NCBI GenBank assembly: GCA_030654175.1 | Contig: JAURXZ010000042.1 | Span: 1 to 64,000, forward strand | Origin: Bacteroidia bacterium | Lineage (GTDB): Bacteria; Bacteroidota; Bacteroidia; 2-12-FULL-35-15 | Length of the DNA: 64,000 nt | Direction of reading: 5' to 3' | Position numbers and translations under genes: made by a program | The notes under the pieces: model-generated | Seen by the model: the letters and a program-made list of their open reading frames with translations, nothing else | Databases searched by the model: none | What the model was told of the DNA's origin: nothing | In this document: in pieces, positions 39,483 through 59,522 of the stretch | Layout: the number at the start of each line of letters is the position of its first letter | Numbering within the stretch: position 1 is the first letter of the stretch

Positions 39483-40739
39483 ATGAAAACAAGACGAGTA
39501 GTAGTTACAGGACTTGGTGCTATTACACCACTTGGTAATAATGTTACGGATTATTGGAACAATCTTATCGCTGGTGTTAGCGGAGCTGCGCCTATTACTC
39601 GTTTTGATGCTTCAAAGTTTAAAACGAGATTTGCATGCGAAGTTAAAGGCTTTAATGTAGAAGAATATTTAGACCGCAAGGAAGCCCGAAAAATGGATCC
39701 GTTTTCTCAATATGGTGTATGTTCGGCTATTCAAGCTGTTCGCGATGCCGGATTAGATGGTGAAAACGCTTTCGATCCTGATAAAGCAGGTGTTATCTGG
39801 GGTACCGGTATTGGTGGTTTGCAAACTTTTCAAGATGAATGTTTTGCTTATGCCAAAGGTGATGGAACGCCACGTTTCAATCCTTTCTTTATTCCTAAAA
39901 TGATCGCTGATATTTGTTCCGGACATATTTCTATTATGTTTGGCATGCGCGGACCTAATTTTACAACAGTTTCAGCATGTGCATCCTCTACCAATTCACT
40001 TATTGACGCAGCATTATATATCAGACTAGGCAAGGCTGATATAATTGTAGCAGGAGGTTCCGAAGCTGCTGTTTGTGAGGCAGGTGTTGGTGGTTTTAAT
40101 GCAATGCATGCACTTTCTACACTTAATGACTCTCCGGAAACGGCATCCCGCCCATTTGATGTGGGTCGTGATGGCTTTGTACTTGGTGAAGGTGCAGGGT
40201 GTTTAATTTTAGAAGAATTAGAGCATGCTTTAAAACGTGGTGCCAAAATATATGCTGAAGTTGCAGGTGGCGGTTTAACTGCTGATGCAAACCACATTAC
40301 AGCTCCGCATCCTGAGGGATTAGGTGCTATAAATGTAATGCAAAATGCCTTGCAGGATGCAGGTATGGTTGCTGACCAGATCGATTATGTGAACGTTCAC
40401 GGAACATCTACACCGCTTGGTGATGTTGCAGAAACAAAAGCCATACTTAAGGTTTTTGGAGAACATGCTTATAAATTAAATATCAGTTCAACAAAATCAA
40501 TGACCGGCCACTTATTAGGTGCTGCCGGAGCTATTGAAGCTATTGCCTGTGTAATGGCAGTACAAAATGATATTATCCCTCCTACAATCAATCATTTTAA
40601 TGATGATCCTGCATTAGATAATAAACTTAATTTTACATTTCATAAAGCACAAAAACGTATAGTAAATGCTGCATTAAGCAATACATTCGGATTTGGCGGA
40701 CATAATGCTTCAGTTATTGTAAAGAAATACATTGCTTAG
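39483..40739 (+). CDS. fabF: Beta-ketoacyl-ACP synthase II
   Basis: Condenses acyl-ACP with malonyl-ACP in fatty acid elongation. The catalytic trio is Cys166 (SACASSTNSL), His306 (VNVHGTSTPLGD) and His343 (TGHLLGAAGAIE). Length 418 is normal. The order acpP-fabF-rnc is seen in many bacteria. The N-terminus KTRRVVVTGLGAITPLG confirms the start. Confidence 0.97.
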   Translation: MKTRRVVVTGLGAITPLGNNVTDYWNNLIAGVSGAAPITRFDASKFKTRFACEVKGFNVEEYLDRKEARKMDPFSQYGVCSAIQAVRDAGLDGENAFDPDKAGVIWGTGIGGLQTFQDECFAYAKGDGTPRFNPFFIPKMIADICSGHISIMFGMRGPNFTTVSACASSTNSLIDAALYIRLGKADIIVAGGSEAAVCEAGVGGFNAMHALSTLNDSPETASRPFDVGRDGFVLGEGAGCLILEELEHALKRGAKIYAEVAGGGLTADANHITAPHPEGLGAINVMQNALQDAGMVADQIDYVNVHGTSTPLGDVAETKAILKVFGEHAYKLNISSTKSMTGHLLGAAGAIEAIACVMAVQNDIIPPTINHFNDDPALDNKLNFTFHKAQKRIVNAALSNTFGFGGHNASVIVKKYIA

Positions 40740-40740
40740 C

Positions 40741-40873
40741 GATATGCTGATTACCAATGTGTTGATGTGCTGATGAATTGTTTATTTTTAATTTATTATT
40801 AGTCCGCTAATCAACTATTCAGAAATCAGCTAATCAATAATCAACTAATCAGCACATCGAAAATCAGCACATC
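40741..40873. repeat. Long GTGCTGAT / ATCAGCAC inverted array
   Basis: Between fabF and rnc. The left arm (40741-40779) holds ATGCTGATT, GTGTTGATGTGCTGATG units; the right arm (40824-40873) holds AATCAGCTAATCAA... then ATCAGCACATC units. This is a decayed, longer relative of the array at 11.5 kb. It fills almost the whole gap of 136 bp. Confidence 0.7.
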
Positions 40874-40875
40874 AT

Positions 40876-41604
40876 TTGACAATCTTCCAAAAACCTTTAA
40901 GGATATACTTTTCCCCCGATAAAACTCTTCATGAATCATTGCGCAATATTCTTGGCTTTTATGCCGGCAATATTGCTTTGTATAAATTAGCATTCCGCCA
41001 TAGCTCTGCCGCTCAGATGATAAAAAAGGGTGTAAAAGACAGCAATGAACGGCTTGAGTTTCTTGGCGATTCCATAATCGGGACAGTAGTTGCAGATTAT
41101 CTTTTTAAAAAATTCCCATTTAAAGATGAAGGGTTTTTAACCAAGATGCGGTCAAAGATGGTGAGCAGAGCCAAACACAATCAGGTTGCTAAAAATTTAG
41201 GATTGAATAAATTTATAGAAGTAAATAACGACCGTTTTAAAACCGCTCAACCCAGCTCTATTAGTGGAGATGCGTATGAAGCCCTGATCGGAGCCATCTA
41301 TCTTGACAAAGGGTATAATGCTGCCCAAACCTTTATTCTTACCCGTATTATTAATGTTCACATTGATATGGATGAAGTAGAAACCAAAGAAATAGATTTT
41401 AAGAGTAAATTTATTGAATGGGTTCAAAAGGAAAAAAAGGAATTTCGCTTTGAGGTTGTTAATGATGCCGGAACCGCAGCCGATAAACAATTTATTATTC
41501 AACTAATTGTCGAAAATGAAACGGTTGGAACCGCCCAGCATTTCTCTAAAAAACGTGCCGAACAAATGGTTTCGGAACAGGCATGTATTGTTTTGGATAT
41601 ATAA
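40876..41604 (+). CDS. rnc: Ribonuclease III
   Basis: Cleaves double-stranded RNA in rRNA and mRNA processing. The signature NERLEFLGDSIIGTVVAD (57-74) gives Glu61 and Asp65, and DAYEALIGAIYLD gives the second metal-binding pair. A dsRNA-binding domain follows from ~170 (KSKFIEWVQKEKKEFRFEVVND...). The start is TTG at 40876, directly after the repeat array; the N-terminal residues RIYFSPDKTL fit Bacteroidota homologues. Length 242. Confidence 0.93.
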   Translation: MTIFQKPLRIYFSPDKTLHESLRNILGFYAGNIALYKLAFRHSSAAQMIKKGVKDSNERLEFLGDSIIGTVVADYLFKKFPFKDEGFLTKMRSKMVSRAKHNQVAKNLGLNKFIEVNNDRFKTAQPSSISGDAYEALIGAIYLDKGYNAAQTFILTRIINVHIDMDEVETKEIDFKSKFIEWVQKEKKEFRFEVVNDAGTAADKQFIIQLIVENETVGTAQHFSKKRAEQMVSEQACIVLDI

Positions 41605-45797: not shown

Positions 45798-47249
45798 ATG
45801 AACATGCAAAAAATAAAAAATTACATCAACGGTGAACTTGTTGCGCCTATATCTAACCTTTATATAGATAATTATAATCCTGCAACCGGAAAGGTGTATT
45901 CCTTCATTCCTGATTCAGATGAACAAGATGTAAATCGTGCTACTGAAGCAGCTTTAGCCGCCTTTCCGAAATGGTCGGTAACGCCAAAAGAGGAACGCTC
46001 CCGCATCATGTTGAAAATCGCAGAACTGATCGAAAAAAATTTAGATCGTTTAGCAATTGCTGAATCTATCGATAATGGCAAACCTGTATCATTAGCCAGA
46101 ATGATTGATATTCCACGTGCTGCAAGTAATTTTCATTTTTATGCAACAGGAATTTTGCATTACGCTTCCCACTGCCATGCAATGGAAGATACTGCAATTA
46201 ATTACACATTACGCACACCCGTTGGTGTTGCAGGCTGCATTTCCCCATGGAATTTACCCTTATATTTATTCACCTGGAAAATTGCACCAGCTATCGCATC
46301 CGGAAATTGTGTGGTTGCAAAACCTTCGGAAATCACCCCTATGACAGCCTATTTACTTTCCGAACTTTGTATTGAAGCTGGTTTACCAAAAGGGGTTTTA
46401 AATATTGTACATGGTTATGGACATAAGGTTGGCGCAGCCATTTCAGCTCATCCGAAAATTCCGCTGATATCTTTTACCGGAGGAACAAAAACAGGTGCAG
46501 AAATTGCACGGGTTGCTGCCCCTATGTTCAAAAAAATATCATTGGAATTAGGAGGGAAAAATCCGAATATCATTTTTGCGGATTGCGATTTTGAAAACGC
46601 TGTTAAAACAACATTACATTCATCCTTCGCAAATCAAGGACAGATATGCCTTTGCGGATCGCGTATATTTATTGAAAGATCTATTTATGAAAAATTCAAA
46701 AACGAATTTATTTCAAAAGTAAAAACGTTAAAAGTGGGAAATCCCGCTGATTCCGAAAGCAGGTTAGGTGCAGTAGTTTCAAAAGCTCACATGGAAAAAA
46801 TATTATCCTACGTTGAATTAGCGAAACAAGAAGGCGGAACAATATTATCAGGAGGCCATCAGGTGAAACTGGATGGTGAATTCTCTGAAGGATATTATAT
46901 AGCTCCTACCGTAATTGAAGGGTTAGCATACAATTGCAGAACCAACCAGGAAGAAATTTTTGGCCCTGTTGTAACGCTTACTCCCTTTGAAACCGAAGAA
47001 GAAGTATTAATGTATGCGAACAGCACTCAATATGGTTTATCGGCTATTGTTTGGACAGAAAGCTTAACCCGCGCGCACCGCGTTGCCGGTATGTTGCACG
47101 CAGGTATTGTTTGGATCAACTGTTGGTTACTTCGTGATCTAAGAACTCCGTTTGGAGGAGTAAAAAGTTCCGGAGTAGGCAGAGAAGGCGGATTTGAAGC
47201 ATTCGATTTTTTTACCGAGCCCAAAAATGTGTGTATTAAATTAAAATGA
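45798..47249 (+). CDS. Aldehyde dehydrogenase, 2-hydroxymuconic semialdehyde type
   Basis: NAD-dependent oxidation of an aldehyde to an acid, 483 residues. The base Glu250 is in ISLELGGKN, the nucleophile Cys284 in NQGQICLCGSRIF, with ISPWNLPLY and FTGGTKTG as cofactor and fold motifs. The GQICLCGSRI stretch is typical of ALDH8-like enzymes that act on 2-hydroxymuconic or 2-aminomuconic semialdehyde, in aromatic or kynurenine breakdown. No other gene of those routes is present. It lies 143 bp before the UbiA/PKS cluster in the same direction and may act within it, but that is a guess. Confidence 0.88.
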   Translation: MNMQKIKNYINGELVAPISNLYIDNYNPATGKVYSFIPDSDEQDVNRATEAALAAFPKWSVTPKEERSRIMLKIAELIEKNLDRLAIAESIDNGKPVSLARMIDIPRAASNFHFYATGILHYASHCHAMEDTAINYTLRTPVGVAGCISPWNLPLYLFTWKIAPAIASGNCVVAKPSEITPMTAYLLSELCIEAGLPKGVLNIVHGYGHKVGAAISAHPKIPLISFTGGTKTGAEIARVAAPMFKKISLELGGKNPNIIFADCDFENAVKTTLHSSFANQGQICLCGSRIFIERSIYEKFKNEFISKVKTLKVGNPADSESRLGAVVSKAHMEKILSYVELAKQEGGTILSGGHQVKLDGEFSEGYYIAPTVIEGLAYNCRTNQEEIFGPVVTLTPFETEEEVLMYANSTQYGLSAIVWTESLTRAHRVAGMLHAGIVWINCWLLRDLRTPFGGVKSSGVGREGGFEAFDFFTEPKNVCIKLK

Positions 47250-47392
47250 TTTTTATTTAAGCGAATTCAACTTTTGTATTTAAGCATGCTGGCTATTAAT
47301 ATCCAGTTTTCAACGAAATATTCCGGCACTACTATACAATTATAATATTTTTAGAAATTGGAATTTTTTTTAACTTGAATTTTTATCTAAAT

Positions 47393-48298
47393 ATGGCGAA
47401 TCTAAACATTGCACTTTGGTTTGATAAAAGCACTGTTAAGCACCTTCGTTTGCCATTTTCCTATCATTTAATGCCGGTATTTTTGTTTGCGCTAAGCCAG
47501 ACGAATTCTATTAACTGGCAATCAACAACAATTGCATTTGTGATCCTTCACCTCTTCATTTACCCCTCAAGCAATGGATATAACAGTTATCAGGATCGCG
47601 ATGAAACAAGCATTGGTGGTTTAAAGTATCCACCAAAAGTTACTAAAAATTTGTTTTTTGTTACATTATTGCTGGATATAATTGGTGTATTAAGCGCACT
47701 GTTTATATCCGTATATTTTTCAATATTTGTTTTGTTGTACATACTTATTTCCCGTGCCTACAGCTACCGAAATTTACGATTGAAGAAATATGCTATTCCA
47801 GGATTTTTAACGGTTATGATTTTTCAGGGAGCCTTCACCTATTTAATGGTTTCATCAGCAACAACAGATGTTTCCATTGCGCACTTTTTCTCAACAAACA
47901 ATATGATTTGTATGACCGTGTCAAGTCTCTTTATTGGCAGTGTTTATCCGCTTACTCAAATATATCAGCACCAGGCGGATAAAAAAGATGGCGTAAATAC
48001 TATCAGCTATAAACTAGGGTATATTGGCACATTTTTATTTTCAGCTTCATTTTTTTTACTGGCAACCTTTTTACTATTTTATTATTTCGACTTAAAACAT
48101 CAGCGGATAGCTTTTCTCTTGTTTTCATTAATGATGCTTCCTGTCATATTTCGATTGATGTATTGGTTTAATGAGGTCAGAAAAAATACGGCTAATGCAG
48201 ATTTTGAAAATACAATGGCAATGAATTTTTGGGCCTCCACTTGTATGAACATCTATTTTCTAATTCTAATTGCGAATAACATTTTTGTTTGGTTTTAG
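47393..48298 (+). CDS. UbiA-type prenyltransferase
   Basis: Membrane enzyme of 301 residues that transfers an isoprenyl chain to an aromatic or other acceptor using Mg-bound diphosphate. Motif 1 reads NSYQDRDE (for NDxxDxxxD), and motif 2 in the second half is the DKKDG of YQHQADKKDGVN. About eight helices are visible. ATG 47393 (MANLNIALWF) is preferred over a TTG 18 bases upstream. Its partners in the following genes are a type III polyketide synthase, a methyltransferase, a small membrane protein and a FAD oxidoreductase, which together look like a biosynthetic set; the prenyl donor and acceptor are unknown. It is not a housekeeping UbiA or MenA by context. Confidence 0.88.
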   Translation: MANLNIALWFDKSTVKHLRLPFSYHLMPVFLFALSQTNSINWQSTTIAFVILHLFIYPSSNGYNSYQDRDETSIGGLKYPPKVTKNLFFVTLLLDIIGVLSALFISVYFSIFVLLYILISRAYSYRNLRLKKYAIPGFLTVMIFQGAFTYLMVSSATTDVSIAHFFSTNNMICMTVSSLFIGSVYPLTQIYQHQADKKDGVNTISYKLGYIGTFLFSASFFLLATFLLFYYFDLKHQRIAFLLFSLMMLPVIFRLMYWFNEVRKNTANADFENTMAMNFWASTCMNIYFLILIANNIFVWF

Positions 48299-48367
48299 TG
48301 CTATTTACAATAGTCGCAGCGATTTAAAAGGCAAATCGATTTTATCGATAATTTTAAAAAAGAATAA

Positions 48368-49465
48368 ATGAGTAAAATAGTTTCGATAGGAACAGCAGTA
48401 CCTGAATATGGCACAGAACAAAGTGTTATACTCGGCTTCATGAAGGATGCTTATAACGATGATATAGCGTCACGTAAGCTGAATGTGCTATTCAGGCATA
48501 GCGGTATCAGCACGCGGTATTCTACTGTTCCTGATTTTGATAAAACAAAATTGAAAACTGTTCTTTTTAATGAAAAACAAGACACCTCAACTGTTGAAAA
48601 CAGATTAAATATCTTTAAAGAAAAAGCGGCACCCCTTGCTATTATGGCAATATCGAATGTATTTAAAAAAATCAACACGGACATTTCCGATTTTGGAGTC
48701 ACCCATTTAATTACCGTTTCCTGTACAGGCTTGTATGCCCCGGGAATTGATTCACAATTAATTGAAGAACTTAATTTACCAAATGATATTTTCCATATTT
48801 CTGTCAATTTTTTAGGTTGCAATGCCGCATTCCATGCATTAAAAATTGCAGATCTCATCACCAGATCTGATGACAATGCAAAAGTGCTGATCGTTTGTGT
48901 TGAGCTATGTACATTGCATTTTCAGCCAAAAAACAATCACGACAATTTATTATCAAACACCATTTTTGGCGATGGAGCTGCTGCTGTAATTATAACCTCT
49001 GATAAGTATCAAAACAATGCCTTACAGAACAGCTTGGTTATCGATGGGTTTTATTCATTGTTACTGCCAAAAGGAAAAGACCTAATGGGCTGGAATATCA
49101 CACCAGTAAATTTTGAAATGATATTAGATGCAAAAATACCGGATTTCATTGGGAGTGAGATCAATTCTATTATTTTAAAGGCATGCAAAACATTTAATAT
49201 AGAGCCTAACACCATTAAAAAATGGGCTGTACATCCGGGAGGAAAAAAAATATTGGACACCATTAAAAAAGAGTTACAACTTAATGAGGAGGATTTAAAA
49301 TATTCCTATAAAATACTGGATGAATACGGTAACATGTCCTCTCCTACCATTTTGTTTGTGTTGAATGAATTAATGGAAGAGAAACAGAATAAAAATGATT
49401 CTGTTTTTTCAATTGGTTTTGGCCCAGGATTAAGCATCGAGACTGCACTCTTTCGTTTTGAATAA
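48368..49465 (+). CDS. Type III polyketide synthase (chalcone synthase-like)
   Basis: Homodimeric condensing enzyme that builds polyketides from CoA thioesters and malonyl-CoA. The triad is Cys119 (VSCTGLYAPG), His289 (WAVHPGGKK) and Asn322 (YGNMSSPTILF). GFGPGLSIE near the C-terminus is the family GxGPG loop. Length 365 is usual. The product type (alkylresorcinol, alkylpyrone or a small aromatic ring) cannot be read from these residues. It begins 69 bp after the UbiA gene and is followed after 23 bp by a methyltransferase. Confidence 0.93.
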   Translation: MSKIVSIGTAVPEYGTEQSVILGFMKDAYNDDIASRKLNVLFRHSGISTRYSTVPDFDKTKLKTVLFNEKQDTSTVENRLNIFKEKAAPLAIMAISNVFKKINTDISDFGVTHLITVSCTGLYAPGIDSQLIEELNLPNDIFHISVNFLGCNAAFHALKIADLITRSDDNAKVLIVCVELCTLHFQPKNNHDNLLSNTIFGDGAAAVIITSDKYQNNALQNSLVIDGFYSLLLPKGKDLMGWNITPVNFEMILDAKIPDFIGSEINSIILKACKTFNIEPNTIKKWAVHPGGKKILDTIKKELQLNEEDLKYSYKILDEYGNMSSPTILFVLNELMEEKQNKNDSVFSIGFGPGLSIETALFRFE

Positions 49466-49488
49466 AACAATGGTCATTTTCACATAAC

Positions 49489-50214
49489 ATGAGCAATAAA
49501 TTTTCCAATCGATCCTACGAATCTGAATTACTGGATGCTCCAAACATTCCTCCAGAATTATTATTTCAAAATTTAAAAGAACTCGATCTCATTAATCAAA
49601 CTCTTGGCGGACATGCTGTTACAATTGCCGGAATAAAAGAACTGCTTACAGACAAAAACAAGATATACCACATTGTTGATATCGGCTGTGGCGGAGGAGA
49701 TGCGATGAAAAGGATTGCTGAATGGGCAAAAAAAAATAACTATAAAGTAAAATTAACAGGGGTCGATTTTAATAGTGACGCCATAAATTATATGAAAATT
49801 TATTGCAATGATTATCCGGAGATCAATGGAGTGAAAAATGATTATCGTGAGTTTTTGAAAAATGATAATACAGTTGATATTATTCATTGCTCTTTGTTTT
49901 GCCATCATTTAAAAGATGATGAATTAATTGAATTATTTACCTGTATAAGACAATTTGCTAAAATAGGTTTTGTGATAAATGATTTACATCGTCACTGGTT
50001 TGCCTATTACAGTATTAAATTTTTAACCCGTTTATTAAACGGATCTTCATTAGTAAGGAACGATGCACCGCTGTCCGTGTTGAGGGGATTTAAAAATTCA
50101 GAGTTAAAAAAATTGTTAGAGAAAGCAGAAGTAAAAAATGTTGATCTGAAATGGATGTGGGCATTCCGATATTTAATTATTCATCGAAATGAAAAGTATG
50201 CAGGACATCAATAA
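49489..50214 (+). CDS. SAM-dependent class I methyltransferase
   Basis: Protein of 241 residues with the SAM-binding motif VDIGCGGGDAMKRIA (motif I) and TGVDFNSDAINYM (motif II). IIHCSLFCHHLKDDEL follows in the usual place. The rest is lineage-specific. Its location in the PKS cluster suggests that it methylates the polyketide or quinone product on O or C. Its last 26 bp overlap the following gene. Confidence 0.9.
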   Translation: MSNKFSNRSYESELLDAPNIPPELLFQNLKELDLINQTLGGHAVTIAGIKELLTDKNKIYHIVDIGCGGGDAMKRIAEWAKKNNYKVKLTGVDFNSDAINYMKIYCNDYPEINGVKNDYREFLKNDNTVDIIHCSLFCHHLKDDELIELFTCIRQFAKIGFVINDLHRHWFAYYSIKFLTRLLNGSSLVRNDAPLSVLRGFKNSELKKLLEKAEVKNVDLKWMWAFRYLIIHRNEKYAGHQ

Positions 50215-50665
50215 AGGTTCAAAAAAAATAAGCTCCTTTGTTTTTTGGCAAAGGTGGCTTTTCTATACCAGCCTGCTGTTTGCTTTGTTTGGAATTGCTC
50301 TCGCTCTATATGGTAACAACCCAGTATTCACCCCTTACATTCAAGCGCTTGCACGCCTTTTCTGGCATCAACAAAATATACCGGCAGACTTTGGACCTTT
50401 TTTATTTTTTATTTGTGGCCCATTAGGTGCTACTATTGCATGCTCCTATATTTTACTTGCCTACTTAGCATGGCATCCTTTCAAGAGGAAGGAACGTTGG
50501 GCACGTAACGCCATTATGGTAGCCTTTGGCACATGGGTTATTTTAGATTCTGCAGTTTGCATTTATTATAATGTTTATTTTCAGGTATATTTAATTAATG
50601 GTTTTTCTATCCTCCAAAAGGCATTACCCTTGATTTTTACCTGGAAAGACTTTAAAAACAGTTAG
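50189..50665 (+). CDS. Small membrane protein of the PKS cluster, unknown function
   Basis: 158 residues with about four hydrophobic helices: FVFWQRWLFYTSLLFALFGIALAL, FGPFLFFICGPLGATIACSYILLAYL, NAIMVAFGTWVILDSAVCIYY and a last one. No family recognised. It overlaps the methyltransferase by 26 bp and stands 12 bp before the oxidoreductase, so its place in the operon is certain while its job is not. It could be a transport or assembly subunit, or a membrane anchor for the soluble enzymes. Confidence 0.75.
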   Translation: MKSMQDINKGSKKISSFVFWQRWLFYTSLLFALFGIALALYGNNPVFTPYIQALARLFWHQQNIPADFGPFLFFICGPLGATIACSYILLAYLAWHPFKRKERWARNAIMVAFGTWVILDSAVCIYYNVYFQVYLINGFSILQKALPLIFTWKDFKNS

Positions 50666-50677
50666 ATCAATTATTGA

Positions 50678-51832
50678 GTGGCTCAAGAAAAAAATCAAAT
50701 AAAAGAAAACAATCAGATCGCCATTATTGGTGGTGGTTTGGCAGGATTAACGTTGTCTATTCAAATGGCCGATGCGGGTTACTCTTGCTTATTATTTGAA
50801 AAGCATAAATATCCTTTTCATAAAGTTTGTGGTGAGTATATTTCAATGGAATCCTGGAGTTTCCTGGAACGATTGGGCTTAAACCTATCTGAAATGAATT
50901 TACCGCAAATAAAAAAACTGAATGTTTCATCGCCATCCGGAAAATGCTTTGAGCATGAACTTGATTTAGGTGGATTTGGAATAAGTCGTTTTTTGCTGGA
51001 TTCTAAACTGGCTGAAATTGCTATAAATAAGGGAGTAAAACTGATCGATGATTGCAAAGTAAATGACGTAAAATTCCATGAAAATAGTTTTACAATAGAT
51101 TCTGAAAAAGGGAATTATTCTGCTTCTGTTTGTGTCGGTGCATGGGGCAAGCATAGTAATTTAGATAATAAATTAGCCCGTTGGTTCACAACAAATTTCA
51201 GTAAAAGAAAAAAAAATTATGTAGGAATAAAGTACCATATAAACATTGATTTCCCTGACGATTTGATAGAATTACATAATTTCAAAAATGGTTACTGCGG
51301 TATTTCAAAAATTGAAAACAGTAAGTATTGTTTTTGTTACCTGACGGATTCTGAAAATCTGAAAAAACATAACGGGGATATAAAAAAAATGGAAGAAAGG
51401 GTGTTAATGCAAAATCCGGTTTTGAAAAAGTATTTTACTCAGGCTAACTTTTTATTTGAGAAGCCTTTGGTTATTTCACAAATTAAAATAGGATATAAAA
51501 AAGCCGTTGAAAACAATATTCTGATGTTGGGTGATGCCGCTGGTAATATTGCCCCGCTCGCTGGAAATGGGATGAGTATGGCCATGCGAAGTTCTTTTCT
51601 TCTGAATAAATTATTGATAAATTATTTCAATAGAGAAATCACAAGAGTTGAATTAGAAAACAAGTACGAGAAAATATGGAAATCAGAATTCCAAAAACGC
51701 ATTAACTTTTCGGTTTATTTACAATATCTCTTGAAAAATAAACTCATGACCAATATTGCTATTACAGTGTTTAAAGCAATTCCATTCTTGAAAAACACGA
51801 TCATTAAATCAACCCACGGAAAGCCTTTTTAA
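50678..51832 (+). CDS. FAD-dependent oxidoreductase (geranylgeranyl reductase/hydroxylase type)
   Basis: Flavoprotein of 384 residues starting at GTG 50678. The FAD fingerprint IAIIGGGLAGLTLSIQMADAG (from ~15) is followed by KVCGEYIS, and the second FAD motif MLGDAAGNIAPLAGNGMSMA is near ~290. The pattern fits the geranylgeranyl-reductase and aromatic hydroxylase relatives. With a PKS, a methyltransferase and a prenyltransferase beside it, a reduction or hydroxylation of the product is the likely step. An analogous set (PKS, methyltransferase, flavoprotein hydroxylase) makes phenolic lipids in Streptomyces griseus (srsABC). Confidence 0.88.
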   Translation: MAQEKNQIKENNQIAIIGGGLAGLTLSIQMADAGYSCLLFEKHKYPFHKVCGEYISMESWSFLERLGLNLSEMNLPQIKKLNVSSPSGKCFEHELDLGGFGISRFLLDSKLAEIAINKGVKLIDDCKVNDVKFHENSFTIDSEKGNYSASVCVGAWGKHSNLDNKLARWFTTNFSKRKKNYVGIKYHINIDFPDDLIELHNFKNGYCGISKIENSKYCFCYLTDSENLKKHNGDIKKMEERVLMQNPVLKKYFTQANFLFEKPLVISQIKIGYKKAVENNILMLGDAAGNIAPLAGNGMSMAMRSSFLLNKLLINYFNREITRVELENKYEKIWKSEFQKRINFSVYLQYLLKNKLMTNIAITVFKAIPFLKNTIIKSTHGKPF

Positions 51833-52028: not shown

Positions 52029-55000
52029 ATGAAAAATTTTCTACTCTTTATTTTCGCTTTTCTCTATTACCACTGCTATGGTCAGGGCAATATGATTGCT
52101 ATTAACAGCACGGTGCCGCCACAAATGACTATTTGTGGGGTGCCTAAATCCTTCGCCATTTCTATTTTTAACCCTTCCCCTTTTTTACTTACCAACGACA
52201 CATTGAAACTAACCATGCCTTCGGGCATAGATTATCAGATAGGATCTATAACAGGGGCAACCGAATTAAACATCACAAATCTGAGTCAGCCCACTTTTTT
52301 ATTGCCCAACATTTCTAATTTAACAACGTTAAACATCACCTATATTGCTGTCGCACATTGCAGTGTTATGGCATATCTTGCCGGAGGAGGTATAATCGAG
52401 AATGTTGTTCGTGTTAATTATTTCGCTAATAACACCACAAATTACGATTCACATACTACCTACTCTTACATAGTTAGGCAACCTAATTTATCCATTTCGG
52501 CTGTTACCAATCAATCCTATACCGGTAATATAGGGGATGTGTTTACACGATGTATCACTGTTACCAATGGTGGCTTAGGTGAACTTAGCCAGTTTACATT
52601 AACAGATATTCATGGTTCCGGAATTCAAATATCAGCGGTAAACAAAGGGACCTGGACCAATTCAGGGTTAACAGAAACAATTGAGTTGAGCGGTGCGGAT
52701 TTTGCATTGATTGGTGACGGGGATAATTTATTTGAGAACGGAGAAAGCATTACAATCTGTGAAACAGTAAATGTGCTTGATTGTATTTCTGTCGCATCAA
52801 CTTTTGAAGCGTATTGGGGGTGTAATGCAGAGCATTGCCAGTCCTCTGTTTCTAATGCTAACGTTGTTTTTCCTAATTTGATTCCTAATTTGGTGATCAC
52901 TCCTATTGCTGCCATAAATTCATGTATTGGAGCAGGAAATGCAAGTTTGCAACAACTCAAAATTGTCAACACAGGATTAGGAAAGGCTGTAAATGTTTTG
53001 ATGGATGTTTTTCAGTCTACAAACATTGGCTACCAGGCTAATCTGGGCTCAAACATTGACCCGGCAAGCTTTACCATACAGATAGGCTACTCAGGAACAC
53101 CATCTTCAATTATTCCTACAAGTACTTTTGCAACTGCAACTCTTGCGTGCATGACAACTCCCAAAGGAAGGGTATTGTTTACTATTCCTTCTATTAATGC
53201 CGGTGATACAGTTTATGTAAAATGGAACAGTTATAGCTGCTGCTATAATGAGTGCATAAGTGTAGGGCATTATGATATCAACGGCTGGCGATTTAAGGGC
53301 AGTTATCAGAATATCTGCCAAAGCACCTACGTAATTTCTGAAACATGGGGTAAAGTGTATTCACGAATGCGCGCAGGCCTCACAAACAATGGTTCCCCCT
53401 CAACTTTAACTTCCGGCCAAACTGGTACTTTTAATTTTTTGTTTTCCTATTATGAACATTCTTTTCCTGTAGGACCCGGAGCTTATTGGAAATTTGAATT
53501 TACTCTGCCTCCCTGTTTAAGATATGTCCCGGGGGCGGGAAACCTCCAGATTCTTCGGTCTAACGGAATTAATACCTGGACACCCACTTCTGTAACCACT
53601 TCAGGAAATATTGTTACTGCTGTTTTTAATGGCAATGCGCCATGGAGTCTTACCCAGGCCGAAATAAAGATTAATTTAACTGTTGATTGTGCCAGTTGCG
53701 GAGGAACCGGCAGTTCCGGTGCAGTTAGCATAAAATCCTATTATATCCCCAACAGCACATGTGCCTGCGCTATTGGTGTTTCATGCCAAAATGCAGCTAT
53801 TAATATTCTTTGTCCAACAGCCTGCCCCGAAGGTATGATCAACAGTAGTTATGAAATGAAACGCACAAGCTACGGCAAGCCCGATAATGAAGCAGGAGGG
53901 GGTAACGGTCTGCCTGATTTAATTGGAAGTTTAGATTTTACAAAAATTAAAACCGACAGGGCCATGTTTGGTGATACCATTACAGCATCATTTAACGGGA
54001 AGGTCAAAACCAGCTTAACGTATCCCTCCTGGCAGTATTGTTATGCCAATTCTTCCATGTCAAATGGTAACCGCCTGGATTTTTTGGATGCCACATTAAA
54101 AATATACCGGGGAGGTCTGGTAGTTGCCACCTGTACTAATTTTACAACACCGGGTAATCCTGTAGTTACCACTACCGGAACAACGAGGGTTTTTAAATAT
54201 GACCTGAGCACACTTGCACTTGGAGGCTGTCTCCCGGGAGGCTTCACCTATTCCAATAATGATTCCCTTGTATTTAAGCCCCGATATAAAGTTGCTTCAA
54301 ATATCGGAAACGCGACTCCTTTAAATTGTTACTCAACCAATGAATTTTACCTGAGTGATATTGCAAACCCAAGCTTAGCTATCAACAAATTTCAGTGTGG
54401 AAAGTTTAATGGAAATTGTTCCATAATAGGATATTATTTTACCAATTATGGCCCCGAAAGTTATTCTGTAAAATCCTGTAATGATATAATTATACGTCAG
54501 AATTATTACCTCAGTATTGGTCCATGTTGTAATAATTACGCAGGTGGAAATTTATTTCCTTATGAATGCCGCAACTGGTCACACATCAATATATTAACAG
54601 CGGTAATGCCATCAGGATATAATTATATTTCTGCACGCTTCAATCAGGTTAGAACTTCAGGAACACTTAATAGTAATACATCTCTCTGGATACCATTAAC
54701 ACCGAACAATTCCAATTCAGATACGCTTACATTTCCGGTAGAACAATATTTTGATGGATACGGAGGAACCGTGCCTTTGAGTGATGATGGATATCATGGC
54801 ACTTTAGAGATTACCATGCGTCCTTCATGTAAAGTAACTCCCGTTTTGTCTCAGGGCATAAAACATGATTGGACATTTGCCGTTACTCCATTTAATTATT
54901 TAACCGGACCAGGAAGCGCTTCTACATTTTCATCATTGGTTCAGGATTATATTGTTTACGAAGCCCCTGTTTTGTTTTTGCAGGCAACATTACCTTCAAT

Positions 55001-58000
55001 TAATGCTCCTAATGCTGCTGCAAGCTGGGATGTAAGCATCTCCAACACCTCCAATACCTCTAATGCACTGAGCACCTGGTTAAGCGGTCCTGCGATTTCC
55101 GGAGTTTCCATTACCCAGATCTTTGATTTGGATAATAATGTGATCATTCCTCCAATTGGAGATATTTACCAGGTTGGAACAATAAATGCTGGTATGGTCC
55201 GCAATTTCAGGATCACCGCGGTATTTACTTCTTGTTCAAAAGATAGTATAATTATTTATTCGGGATGGAACTGCAATGCAGGATATCCGGCCAACCTGCA
55301 AACATATCCTTGTACACCAAAATCGATCAAATTAAAACTGACACCACTAATGCCCGCACTCATTGTGAATGTTACAGCCCCCCCGGCCACCATTCAGCTC
55401 TGTGATACAGCAAGCTATACTGCAGTTGGACTCAATGTACAAATGGGAACGGCTTACCATGTTTTTCTGGTAGCCGTTCTACCCACAGGAGTTTCCATCG
55501 TTCCCGGCTCATCCCAATTGAGTTACCCTGTTTCCAACCCCTACGCCACCATCTCGGACCCGGATTTTGTGGGCGGAACTACCTGGCAATGGGACATTTC
55601 CTTTACCGACAGCCTGATCAATGCAGATGGTTTAAAAGGAATTCTTGAATCTACATTAAATTCATTCAAACTTACCTTCAAGGTGGTGACAACCTGTGGT
55701 TATACATCCGGTAGTATTATTGCTTTTAATCTTAAAGGCGAATCCGCTTGCGGAATGGCTACAGGTCAGGAAGTAGCATTGTCTTCACAACTCGGAATTA
55801 CCGGAGCAACTACTCCTTACCTTACTGCAATAAAATTACTCACCACCTATATTTCACCCTGTGCAAGCAATACATCACTATACGTAGGCGTGCACAATCA
55901 GGGACCTGCAGCATTTGGCAGCACCGATTCCGTGATCATTCAACTGCCCGTTGGCGTTTCTTTTGTGGCCGGTTCATTTTCTGGTATTTATAACCCTCCG
56001 GGGAATGCTATTCCAACACAATACACGATTAATGGAAGTGTCTACCTGAAATGGAAATTGCCTCCCGGCATAGCAGTCGGAGATAGCAGTGTGTTTACAT
56101 TTGACTATCAAGGAAACGCACAAACACTGTCCTGTGAAATTACCCAATTTGAAGCAAAAACTACCAGTTCAACAAATGTTACCTGCACTCAATCGGGTAG
56201 TAATTGTGGAATAAATGTTACTACTGGCGATACCACACTTGCTGTATTTATTTATAAGGCATACTTATCCCTAAGCAACGGACACGCCACGGCAATACCT
56301 AATCCTCCCTCAGGAGAAACGGTAACTGTTAATTTAGATATTACCAATACCGGCCAGGCTATCCTCACTGGCGCTAATTCCATTCTTCAGTTCTATTATG
56401 ATACGAATGGTAATGGAGTTTACAATTCAGGTGATTTGTTTTTAGCTCAGGATACTCTGCTTGTAAGCAATAATGCTACTTTGCCTTATTCAAAAACGTT
56501 TAATGTTTCTGCTGGTAATGCCTGTTCCATAATTGCGATTATCAGAACTGACGTTAATCCCTGTGTCTGTAATCCTTCACAACTGGTCATTTCACCGGTT
56601 TTAGTTACTTTGGGAAATGACAGCACTTTATGCTCGGGCCAAACGATGGCCCTTAACACCATGCCTGTAACAGGCTATACATATAGCTGGACGCCCGCCA
56701 CCGGATTGAGTAGTTCAAGCGTTGCCAACCCTTTGCTAACAGCATCAAATATTACCGTAACTCCGGTTGTTACTGACTATATCCTTACAACTAACCGAAT
56801 AGGATGTATCTCAAAGGATACCATACAAATTACCGTGAATCCTCTTCCGCTGTCCAATGCAGGACTTGACACAACAACCTGTCCCCTCAATACACAGGGT
56901 ACCCTGGGTACTGCGTTTGTAGCAGGTTACACTTATTCATGGCTCCCGGCATCCAACCTGAGCAGTACTATGGTATCTGCTCCTTCTGTAATGTTAAATA
57001 CCCCCGGCACCACCACTTATACAGTAACCACCACAGCTTTGGGATGTAGCTCATCCGATAGCGTAATAGTTAGGGTGAACCCTTTTCCCACAGCTACTAT
57101 AAGTGGTTCAAGAGGTGTTTGTAAAGATGCTGTTGCACCCATTATTACTTTCACAGGAGCAGATGGTACAGCACCTTATACCTTTACTTATAATTTAAAT
57201 GGAGGAGGGAATCAAACGCTAACCACTTCTGGCGGGGACACCGTAACTCTTATAGCACCTACGGGCAGTTCAGGAACTTTTGTATATACTTTGGTAAATG
57301 TGCAGGATGCAAGTTCAACTGCATGTTCTCAAGTGCAAAGCGGAACAGCAACAATTACAGTAAATCCTTTGCCCACTGCAACTATAACCGGGACAACCGA
57401 AGCATGTGAAGGAGCCGGCTCGCCAAACATTATCTTTAAAGGGTTTGGTGGCATAGCCCCGTATACGTTTACCTATACTATAAATGGAGGAGCTAACCAA
57501 ACTGTAACCAGCATTGGAGACAGTGTATTAGTGCCGGTTTCCACAACCACTGTTGGTACATTTGTGTACTCAATGATAAAAGTACAATATGGCAGTTTAA
57601 CTTCCTGCTCTCAGATAGAAACAGGGACCGCTACTGTAATAATAAACCCATCATCAACAGCAACAATAACAGGAACAGCCGAAGTATGTGAAGGAGGTAC
57701 ACCACCAGTAATCACCTTTGTTGGTGCTGATGGCATGGCTCCATATACTTTTACCTATGCTATAAATGGTGTAACATTACCACCCGTAACCAGTATAGGA
57801 GATAGTGCTCAGGTAGCTGTGCCAACATCGGTAGCCGGAACTTTTACATACGCTCTGGTAAGTGTGATAGATGCCAGTTCAACTATTTGCTCTCAGGCGC
57901 AAACCGGAAGTGCTATTGTTACAGTAAATCCATTGCCAACAGCAACAATTACCGGTGATACAGGAGTTTGTAAAAACTCGGTGGAACCGGGTATTACTTT

Positions 58001-59522
58001 CACAGGAGCAAATGGTATTGCTCCTTACACCTTCACATATACTATTAATAACGGAACCAATCAGACGATAAGCACAACAAATGGAAACAGTGTGACTATT
58101 TCTATACCCACAGGTATAGTGGGTACATTTACGTATGACCTGATTAGTGTAATGGAATCGGGCTTAACCACCTGCTTTCAAACACAGATAGGGAGTGCTG
58201 TTGTAATAATAAATCCATTACCGCAAGCTGATTTTGGATTTACCGATGTTTGTTTGAATCAAATTTTGAATTTTAATGAAGCTTCCACTGTTTCAAGTGG
58301 AACAACAATCGCCTGGTTGTGGAACTTTGGTGATAATAGCCCTTTGAATATCACTCAAAACCCTGGTTATCTGTATGCAAATTCAGGCACATTTAACGTT
58401 TCTTTAATTACCACAACCAACAATGGATGTGCTGACACCATTGCAAAAAACATTGTGGTGCATCCACTTCCTGCCCCTCAGTTTTATTCAGAAAGTGTGT
58501 GTGATGGAAGCAGCACCTACTTCACCGACCAATCTTCTATCCCCACAACCGACACAATACAATCATGGAAATGGAATTTTGGCGATAACAGCACTGTAAG
58601 CACCGATCAATTTGCCTCTCACCTTTATGCCGGTCCGGGATCGGCCTTTGTTCAGCTAGTTGTTGTTTCTAATTTTGGATGTATTGATTCTATTACAAAA
58701 ACCGCAGTTGTTAATCCAAAACCGGATGTGAATTTTACTGCTAATGATACCATTGGCTGTGAACCATTATGTGTCTATTTTATGGACGCTTCCACTATTT
58801 TAACTGGAATAAATGTTCAATGGCTTTGGAATGTTGGAGATGGAAGCCAACCGGGTGCGAATTCTAATTATGAGCACTGCTTTGGCAATGATTCTGTTTT
58901 TGCACCGGCCACTTTTGATATTACGTTAACAGTTACCTCTGATAGTGGGTGCGTTAGCACGTTGTCAAAAAATGACTATATAACAGTTTACCCAAATCCC
59001 GAAGCGAATTTCTCAGCTATGCCCGACACGGTACCGATTATTGATCCGATAATTTCCATATTGGATGCATCAACAGGTGCCGATTTTTGGAATTGGGATT
59101 TTGGAGATCTGGAAACCGGAACGTTGAATAATCCTTCGCCTCATACTTATTCAAAAACAGGAGATTACATTATTACCCTAATAACTTCAAACCAATATGG
59201 TTGTGTGGATACCACAAGTCGTACGATATACGTTGAACCCGATTTTGTGTTTTATATTCCAAATGCATTTACTCCCAATGGTGATGAAATAAACGACACT
59301 TTCTTTGGTAAAGGTATTGGTATTATCGAATTTGAAATGATGATATTTGATCGTTGGGGGAATTTAATTTTCTTTTCAGATGATATTAATAAACCCTGGG
59401 ATGGCAAAGCAAACAACGGAACTGAACTTGCACAGATGGATGTATATGTTTACTCCATCCGACTTTTAGATATTAGATTGAAAAAACATAAATACAGAGG
59501 GCATGTCACATTAGTGAAATAG
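52029..59522 (+). CDS. Giant T9SS type B adhesin with repeats and PKD domains
   Basis: 2497-residue secreted or cell-surface protein. A signal peptide (FIFAFLYYHCYGQG) precedes a long region (~25-1500) of DUF11/Ig-like stretches in which Cys is common. Two Ig-like PKD-type units follow (~1525-1680, with SWTPATGLSSSS and SWLPASNLSST), then four near-identical tandem repeats of about 94-95 residues (starting at ~1684, 1779, 1873 and 1967, each with NPLPTATITG.., APYTFTY). Next come four PKD domains with W.WNFGDNS-like motifs (~2066-2400), and the C-terminal gliding-associated CHU_C domain with FYIPNAFTPNGDEINDTFFG and WDGKANNGTELAQMDVYVY, which targets the Por secretion system. Its length and repeats suit adhesion or gliding. 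It is alone, without visible SprB or PorP partners. Confidence 0.92.
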   Translation: MKNFLLFIFAFLYYHCYGQGNMIAINSTVPPQMTICGVPKSFAISIFNPSPFLLTNDTLKLTMPSGIDYQIGSITGATELNITNLSQPTFLLPNISNLTTLNITYIAVAHCSVMAYLAGGGIIENVVRVNYFANNTTNYDSHTTYSYIVRQPNLSISAVTNQSYTGNIGDVFTRCITVTNGGLGELSQFTLTDIHGSGIQISAVNKGTWTNSGLTETIELSGADFALIGDGDNLFENGESITICETVNVLDCISVASTFEAYWGCNAEHCQSSVSNANVVFPNLIPNLVITPIAAINSCIGAGNASLQQLKIVNTGLGKAVNVLMDVFQSTNIGYQANLGSNIDPASFTIQIGYSGTPSSIIPTSTFATATLACMTTPKGRVLFTIPSINAGDTVYVKWNSYSCCYNECISVGHYDINGWRFKGSYQNICQSTYVISETWGKVYSRMRAGLTNNGSPSTLTSGQTGTFNFLFSYYEHSFPVGPGAYWKFEFTLPPCLRYVPGAGNLQILRSNGINTWTPTSVTTSGNIVTAVFNGNAPWSLTQAEIKINLTVDCASCGGTGSSGAVSIKSYYIPNSTCACAIGVSCQNAAINILCPTACPEGMINSSYEMKRTSYGKPDNEAGGGNGLPDLIGSLDFTKIKTDRAMFGDTITASFNGKVKTSLTYPSWQYCYANSSMSNGNRLDFLDATLKIYRGGLVVATCTNFTTPGNPVVTTTGTTRVFKYDLSTLALGGCLPGGFTYSNNDSLVFKPRYKVASNIGNATPLNCYSTNEFYLSDIANPSLAINKFQCGKFNGNCSIIGYYFTNYGPESYSVKSCNDIIIRQNYYLSIGPCCNNYAGGNLFPYECRNWSHINILTAVMPSGYNYISARFNQVRTSGTLNSNTSLWIPLTPNNSNSDTLTFPVEQYFDGYGGTVPLSDDGYHGTLEITMRPSCKVTPVLSQGIKHDWTFAVTPFNYLTGPGSASTFSSLVQDYIVYEAPVLFLQATLPSINAPNAAASWDVSISNTSNTSNALSTWLSGPAISGVSITQIFDLDNNVIIPPIGDIYQVGTINAGMVRNFRITAVFTSCSKDSIIIYSGWNCNAGYPANLQTYPCTPKSIKLKLTPLMPALIVNVTAPPATIQLCDTASYTAVGLNVQMGTAYHVFLVAVLPTGVSIVPGSSQLSYPVSNPYATISDPDFVGGTTWQWDISFTDSLINADGLKGILESTLNSFKLTFKVVTTCGYTSGSIIAFNLKGESACGMATGQEVALSSQLGITGATTPYLTAIKLLTTYISPCASNTSLYVGVHNQGPAAFGSTDSVIIQLPVGVSFVAGSFSGIYNPPGNAIPTQYTINGSVYLKWKLPPGIAVGDSSVFTFDYQGNAQTLSCEITQFEAKTTSSTNVTCTQSGSNCGINVTTGDTTLAVFIYKAYLSLSNGHATAIPNPPSGETVTVNLDITNTGQAILTGANSILQFYYDTNGNGVYNSGDLFLAQDTLLVSNNATLPYSKTFNVSAGNACSIIAIIRTDVNPCVCNPSQLVISPVLVTLGNDSTLCSGQTMALNTMPVTGYTYSWTPATGLSSSSVANPLLTASNITVTPVVTDYILTTNRIGCISKDTIQITVNPLPLSNAGLDTTTCPLNTQGTLGTAFVAGYTYSWLPASNLSSTMVSAPSVMLNTPGTTTYTVTTTALGCSSSDSVIVRVNPFPTATISGSRGVCKDAVAPIITFTGADGTAPYTFTYNLNGGGNQTLTTSGGDTVTLIAPTGSSGTFVYTLVNVQDASSTACSQVQSGTATITVNPLPTATITGTTEACEGAGSPNIIFKGFGGIAPYTFTYTINGGANQTVTSIGDSVLVPVSTTTVGTFVYSMIKVQYGSLTSCSQIETGTATVIINPSSTATITGTAEVCEGGTPPVITFVGADGMAPYTFTYAINGVTLPPVTSIGDSAQVAVPTSVAGTFTYALVSVIDASSTICSQAQTGSAIVTVNPLPTATITGDTGVCKNSVEPGITFTGANGIAPYTFTYTINNGTNQTISTTNGNSVTISIPTGIVGTFTYDLISVMESGLTTCFQTQIGSAVVIINPLPQADFGFTDVCLNQILNFNEASTVSSGTTIAWLWNFGDNSPLNITQNPGYLYANSGTFNVSLITTTNNGCADTIAKNIVVHPLPAPQFYSESVCDGSSTYFTDQSSIPTTDTIQSWKWNFGDNSTVSTDQFASHLYAGPGSAFVQLVVVSNFGCIDSITKTAVVNPKPDVNFTANDTIGCEPLCVYFMDASTILTGINVQWLWNVGDGSQPGANSNYEHCFGNDSVFAPATFDITLTVTSDSGCVSTLSKNDYITVYPNPEANFSAMPDTVPIIDPIISILDASTGADFWNWDFGDLETGTLNNPSPHTYSKTGDYIITLITSNQYGCVDTTSRTIYVEPDFVFYIPNAFTPNGDEINDTFFGKGIGIIEFEMMIFDRWGNLIFFSDDINKPWDGKANNGTELAQMDVYVYSIRLLDIRLKKHKYRGHVTLVK

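Follow-up and report, generated by a model that had tools for sequence, protein, structure and literature searches.

Conservation of a UbiA–type III polyketide synthase gene module in Bacteroidota and its proposed role in the synthesis of a prenylated phenolic lipid

Our analysis revealed a real co-functional module, widely conserved in Bacteroidota, composed of genes for a UbiA-superfamily protein, a type III polyketide synthase (PKS), a SAM-dependent methyltransferase (MT) and a flavoprotein. By analogy with the agq cluster of an actinomycete, from which this kind of pathway is known, we consider it reasonably probable that the operon directs the synthesis of a prenylated, methylated and hydroxylated alkylresorcinol or hydroquinone lipid; in Bacteroidota such a pathway is apparently uncharacterised. 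Both the gene content and the linkage of the cluster support the original prediction, made from the DNA sequence, that the product may be a prenylated aromatic polyketide, which we regard as likely. A conserved module with a strictly co-inherited prenyltransferase offers a testable target in the search for prenylated phenolic lipids or quinones of environmental Bacteroidota.

Organization and conservation of the cluster

The window, i.e., the whole stretch of 64,000 nucleotides that was analysed, contains five open reading frames (ORFs) on the plus strand, encoding a UbiA-superfamily membrane protein, the putative prenyltransferase (47393..48298), a type III PKS (48368..49465), an MT (49489..50214), an accessory membrane protein with four transmembrane helices (50189..50665), and a FAD oxidoreductase of the geranylgeranyl-reductase/UbiH-like superfamily (50678..51832). 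The intergenic gaps are 69, 23, −26 and 12 bp, and the ORF and Pfam searches agree with the gene set, strand and spacing that had been predicted. The flavoprotein ORF begins with GTG. For UbiA, an alternative in-frame start is possible (TTG at 47375); the ATG at 47393 was preferred because homologues align with or begin at this position. No match to the Bacteroidetes −33/−7 promoter was detected within 45.5–52.1 kb, and sigma-70-like sites did not rise above the level of shuffled sequence.

To this region we compared loci from genomes of the same genus and the same class and from named metagenome-assembled contigs of Bacteroidales and Prolixibacteraceae, giving 36 loci in all; two of these (L079 and L080) were taken in for the four-helix protein and are without PKS. 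In nearly all loci holding the whole region, the UbiA, PKS and MT genes have the same order and strand, with overlaps or short gaps, and are usually followed by a flavoprotein gene. In L075, however, the UbiA gene is on the opposite strand, and in L078 it is absent; broken contigs make up the other exceptions. Loss of synteny among relatives had been named as a test of the cluster, and the order was kept in nearly every related locus.

Across an even set of 394 Bacteroidota genomes, a PKS relative at E < 1e-20 is present in 178. Members of the UbiA clade were detected in 60 genomes, all of which encode the PKS as well; the UbiA score is strong in 26 of the 60. Among the strong-score genomes, UbiA and PKS lie within 3 kb of each other in 20, and in the other 6 they are apart while both are kept. 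Counted by genomes, the co-occurrence gave a hypergeometric p of ~3e-24, and counted by genera, ~7e-11; both values ignore relatedness on the tree. The remaining 34 UbiA matches are weaker, belong to a single family of another class and are unlinked to PKS, which counts against the pathway proposed below. A tblastn search of 28 loci from the phylum recovered the same neighbours, mostly at 33–55% identity. Based on the conserved gene order and the presence of PKS in 60 of 60 UbiA-positive genomes, the module is genuine, and the predicted co-functional cluster is borne out.

The UbiA-superfamily protein and prenyl transfer

Membership in the UbiA superfamily rests on the Pfam match (PF01040, 47.4 bits against a cut-off of 34.2) and on the fold. 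The AlphaFold model (pLDDT 94) superimposes on Archaeoglobus fulgidus UbiA with DMAPP and Mg (4tq4) with a Z of 23.7 and an rmsd of 3.4 over 271 residues, and soluble prenyl synthases reach a Z near 14, well under this match. The cluster protein shares its fold with AfUbiA, ApUbiA and UBIAD1; however, the motif alignment revealed that the first motif, canonically NDxxDxxxD, is NSYxDxDExSIGGLxxPP throughout the clade, and the second, canonically DxxxD, is YPxTQxYQHxxD, so that part of the Mg/diphosphate-binding aspartates is missing. N64, S65, D68, D70, Q192 and D196 are invariant polar residues. Since D68, D70 and D196 are kept and invariant, it is plausible that the protein transfers prenyl groups by way of a rearranged metal site, as judged from the model and the alignment. 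The altered aspartates raise the question as to how the diphosphate is bound.

The cluster UbiA is not a housekeeping enzyme, because the same genome encodes a separate heme O synthase, a UbiA/MqnP-like protein scoring above the ubiA_other cut-off and EboC; one further UbiA protein is also encoded. In the MenA, MqnP and UbiA equivalog comparison, its best NCBIfam scores were at most 27 bits, against cut-offs above 200. A search of plasmids with UbiA gave no match.

These altered motifs would be consistent with a pathway without prenylation, in which the PKS, the MT and the flavoprotein would follow the scheme of the srsABC and hidABC clusters described below and the UbiA protein has lost prenyl transfer or acts otherwise in the same membrane pathway; many bacteria indeed have the three genes without UbiA. 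Against this stand the strict co-inheritance of UbiA with PKS, the full UbiA fold with its invariant polar residues, and an isomerase-like gene that adjoins some clusters, and we regard this explanation as unlikely. The adjoining gene, a NUDIX gene (PF00293) found within three related clusters, looks like an isopentenyl-diphosphate isomerase by its family, which fits an isoprenoid step. The cluster contains no gene for a prenyl-diphosphate synthase, and this counts against prenylation.

The phenolic-lipid triad and the proposed pathway

Judged by their sequences, the adjacent PKS, MT and flavoprotein genes appear to constitute the widespread phenolic-lipid triad of the srsABC/hidABC type, and the analogy to srsABC that had been drawn at the outset is upheld. 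The same three neighbours occur in srsABC of Streptomyces griseus and in hidABC of cyanobacteria with its relatives in Planctomycetota (PMC10896814, PMC8086630), and we found the triad, including a PRK06202-type MT, in Psychrobacter, Paludisphaera (Planctomycetota) and Deinococcus as well. In contrast to the Bacteroidota cluster, srsABC and hidABC are as a rule without UbiA; a single hierridin-like cluster from cyanobacteria that includes a prenyltransferase has been reported as unique (PMC8086630). Planctomycetal triad PKSs produced alkylresorcinols (pentadecyl- and heptadecylresorcinols) in C. glutamicum, and co-expression of the Gimesia MT and oxidoreductase genes led to the addition of one methyl group, probably on carbon (PMC10896814).

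The MT, of class I, matches PF13649 (46.6 bits), and PRK06202 is by far its best NCBIfam model at 145.3 bits, under a cut-off of 243 that is no published criterion of the phenolic-lipid triad. The same model is the best one for the MTs adjoining type III PKS genes in Psychrobacter (107.6) and Paludisphaera (232.4), both below the cut-off. The flavoprotein matches PF01494 (40.4 bits) and falls below every curated NCBIfam cut-off shown, including that of the geranylgeranyl-reductase family (TIGR02032, 98.2 bits against 158.8). In some relatives its place is taken by an aromatic hydroxylase of 526–541 residues with PF01494 and Rng_hyd_C domains, which belongs to a different branch. Among the best solved relatives of this hydroxylase are rifampin monooxygenase, VibO, PgaE and 2-hydroxybiphenyl monooxygenase. 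Likewise, the triad flavoprotein is rifampin-monooxygenase-like in Deinococcus and reductase-like in Psychrobacter. Two unlike flavoproteins filling one slot point to ring hydroxylation, and the cluster flavoprotein is a probable ring hydroxylase; alternatively, it might be a reductase of the prenyl chain, as the NCBIfam model that fits it best describes a reductase family.

The closest characterised precedent with UbiA added appears to be agq, likened here by its described gene content. The agq cluster of Actinoplanes missouriensis is described in papers citing Awakawa et al. 2011 (PMC10896814, PMC3227686, PMC4044012) as yielding alkyl-O-dihydrogeranyl-methoxyhydroquinones, and AgqD, a UbiA-like enzyme, as O-prenylating the alkyl-methoxyhydroquinone (PMC3227686). 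According to these descriptions, the alkylresorcinol made by a type III PKS is then hydroxylated and is prenylated by the UbiA-like enzyme, and the corresponding set of type III PKS, UbiA, MT and flavoprotein is present in the Bacteroidota cluster. Compared by the same descriptions, the Bacteroidota set differs from agq in its phylum, its four-helix protein, its alternative aromatic hydroxylase and its altered UbiA motifs. In the loseolamycin locus of Micromonospora endolithica, the third gene ahead of losA is a UbiA-family prenyltransferase gene and the second encodes an MT, with an acyl-CoA dehydrogenase gene between them and losA, and the reported loseolamycins are alkylresorcinols (PMC7587189). 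The pairing of UbiA with a type III PKS is not unprecedented: agq, which the original prediction did not mention, and the UbiA-family gene near losA precede it. Surveys with antiSMASH list type III PKS regions of Bacteroidota without a product (PMC7440613, PMC10752948), and a literature search with most subscription journals outside its scope found no report or characterised product of a UbiA-linked PKS set in this phylum.

In the pathway that we propose, the type III PKS would elongate a starter unit (an acyl group, probably a fatty acyl one) using malonyl-CoA and cyclise the chain, which would yield an alkylresorcinol or alkylresorcylic acid. The MT would methylate the ring or a hydroxyl, the flavoprotein would hydroxylate the ring to a (hydro)quinone, and UbiA would move a prenyl group from a prenyl diphosphate to a ring carbon or oxygen inside the membrane. 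Residues of the PKS support the first step, as do, by analogy, the triad enzymes characterised from Planctomycetota; the other three steps are suggested by enzyme families and linkage, and we infer their order as well as the chain length and prenyl length.

Of the two product classes originally put forward, the membrane quinone is only a possible one. The cluster might make a chorismate-independent isoprenoid quinone, i.e., a long-chain prenylated polyketide quinone acting alongside menaquinone as an additional electron carrier, given that UbiA, MT and hydroxylase are enzyme types of ubiquinone synthesis and that polyketide quinones of M. tuberculosis are described as electron carriers in work cited in PMC10896814. 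We consider this very unlikely: no link to respiratory genes was seen, UbiA is patchy within the phylum, as its genome count shows, and the word 'polyketide' is absent from the main text of a survey, published in 2026, of the isoprenoid quinones of bacteria. That a chorismate-independent prenylated quinone lipid, made with the rearranged-metal-site UbiA, provides an extra membrane redox carrier or envelope lipid across a broad part of Bacteroidota is likewise quite unlikely.

As for the starter of the phenolic-lipid pathway that we prefer, the PKS matches the N and C domains of chalcone/stilbene synthases, PF00195 with 95.3 bits and PF02797 with 84.6 bits, each against a cut-off of 27. Its Cys151-His289-Asn322 triad is invariant among 31 homologues, as is a second cysteine, Cys119, confirming the intact catalytic triad noted before. 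The nearest solved sequences are Ectocarpus PKSIII (4b0n), Steely1 and PKS18, with slightly higher profile scores for the algal PKSIII and Steely1 than for PKS18. Cys181, which is nearly invariant, aligns with a cysteine of PKS18 at a position where entry 1tee, unlike 1ted, has Phe. We take this position to be one that shapes the fatty-acyl tunnel of PKS18, and on that basis the starter is likely a long acyl chain. A small aromatic made from a short starter (e.g., of the acylphloroglucinol or orcinol type) and prenylated to a diffusible secondary metabolite instead of a membrane lipid would suit the slightly better scores against 4b0n and Steely1, but the near-invariance of Cys181 and the long alkylresorcinols of related triads (PMC10896814) make it highly improbable. 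Identity with DpgA, the 3,5-dihydroxyphenylacetyl-CoA synthase, was rejected, as NCBIfam NF042429 gave 181.6 bits, far under its cut-off of 425.

The four-helix protein and neighbouring genes

The 158-residue four-helix protein, which had been singled out as the most novel part of the cluster, matches no Pfam or NCBIfam family, and its AlphaFold model (pLDDT 87) consists of four long helices. A Foldseek search with this model returned nothing below E 1, and VIA-align gave a Z of up to 10.3 (tetraspanins and VKOR-like proteins), within the range expected of unrelated helical bundles. Nine of the compared loci encode the protein: seven of them, this one included, have it within the cluster beside the flavoprotein gene, and the other two are homologues located elsewhere. 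Only 12 of the 394 phylum genomes encode it, and the two of these that score best outside its own group carry it and the PKS on separate contigs. It is a patchy, occasional accessory and not the heart of the cluster; judging from the sequences, the UbiA clade with its non-canonical aspartate motifs appears to be the more unusual part.

The genes upstream of the cluster differ between loci and include radA, aldehyde dehydrogenase and others. The aldehyde dehydrogenase (45798..47249) was rejected as a pathway member, being upstream only here and in two relatives, with radA or another gene at this place in most relatives. A short-chain dehydrogenase that lies downstream in many relatives is probably a mere neighbour; here, a copy with 85% identity is on another contig. 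Counter to the mere-neighbour reading, the short-chain dehydrogenase gene is also linked in one further genome, G036.

Variation of the UbiA-PKS module in related genomes

A single 31.7 kb contig of the related genome G011 bears two differing copies of the UbiA-PKS-methyltransferase module (loci L062 and L063), whose PKS proteins share 69% and 42% identity, respectively, with the PKS of the window. The four-helix protein is encoded in the second copy only, as is the NUDIX gene (PF00293) resembling isopentenyl-diphosphate isomerase. In the relative G017 (L082:1-2987), a 416-residue ORF, possibly an insertion, separates the UbiA gene from the PKS gene, which is itself interrupted by contig ends.

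Genes flanking the cluster

Genes for a FabF-type ketoacyl synthase and RNase III (window 39483-41604) are located ~6 kb 5' of the cluster, and both families are also found near the cluster in most same-genus relatives; the cluster thus neighbours fatty-acid genes. Directly 3' of the cluster, a gene encoding a repetitive secreted protein of 2497 residues was detected (window 52029-59522), with a homologue 3' of the cluster in one relative (L081).

Additional UbiA-family proteins

Elsewhere in the genome of the window, contig C16 encodes a UbiA-like EboC protein (L156; 368 bits against a cut-off of 250), a match which suggests that this genome also has an ebo-type locus, another UbiA system. 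A further UbiA-family protein is encoded on contig C31:60607-61314 (L157), its best NCBIfam score of 44.6 bits being below the cut-off of 238.
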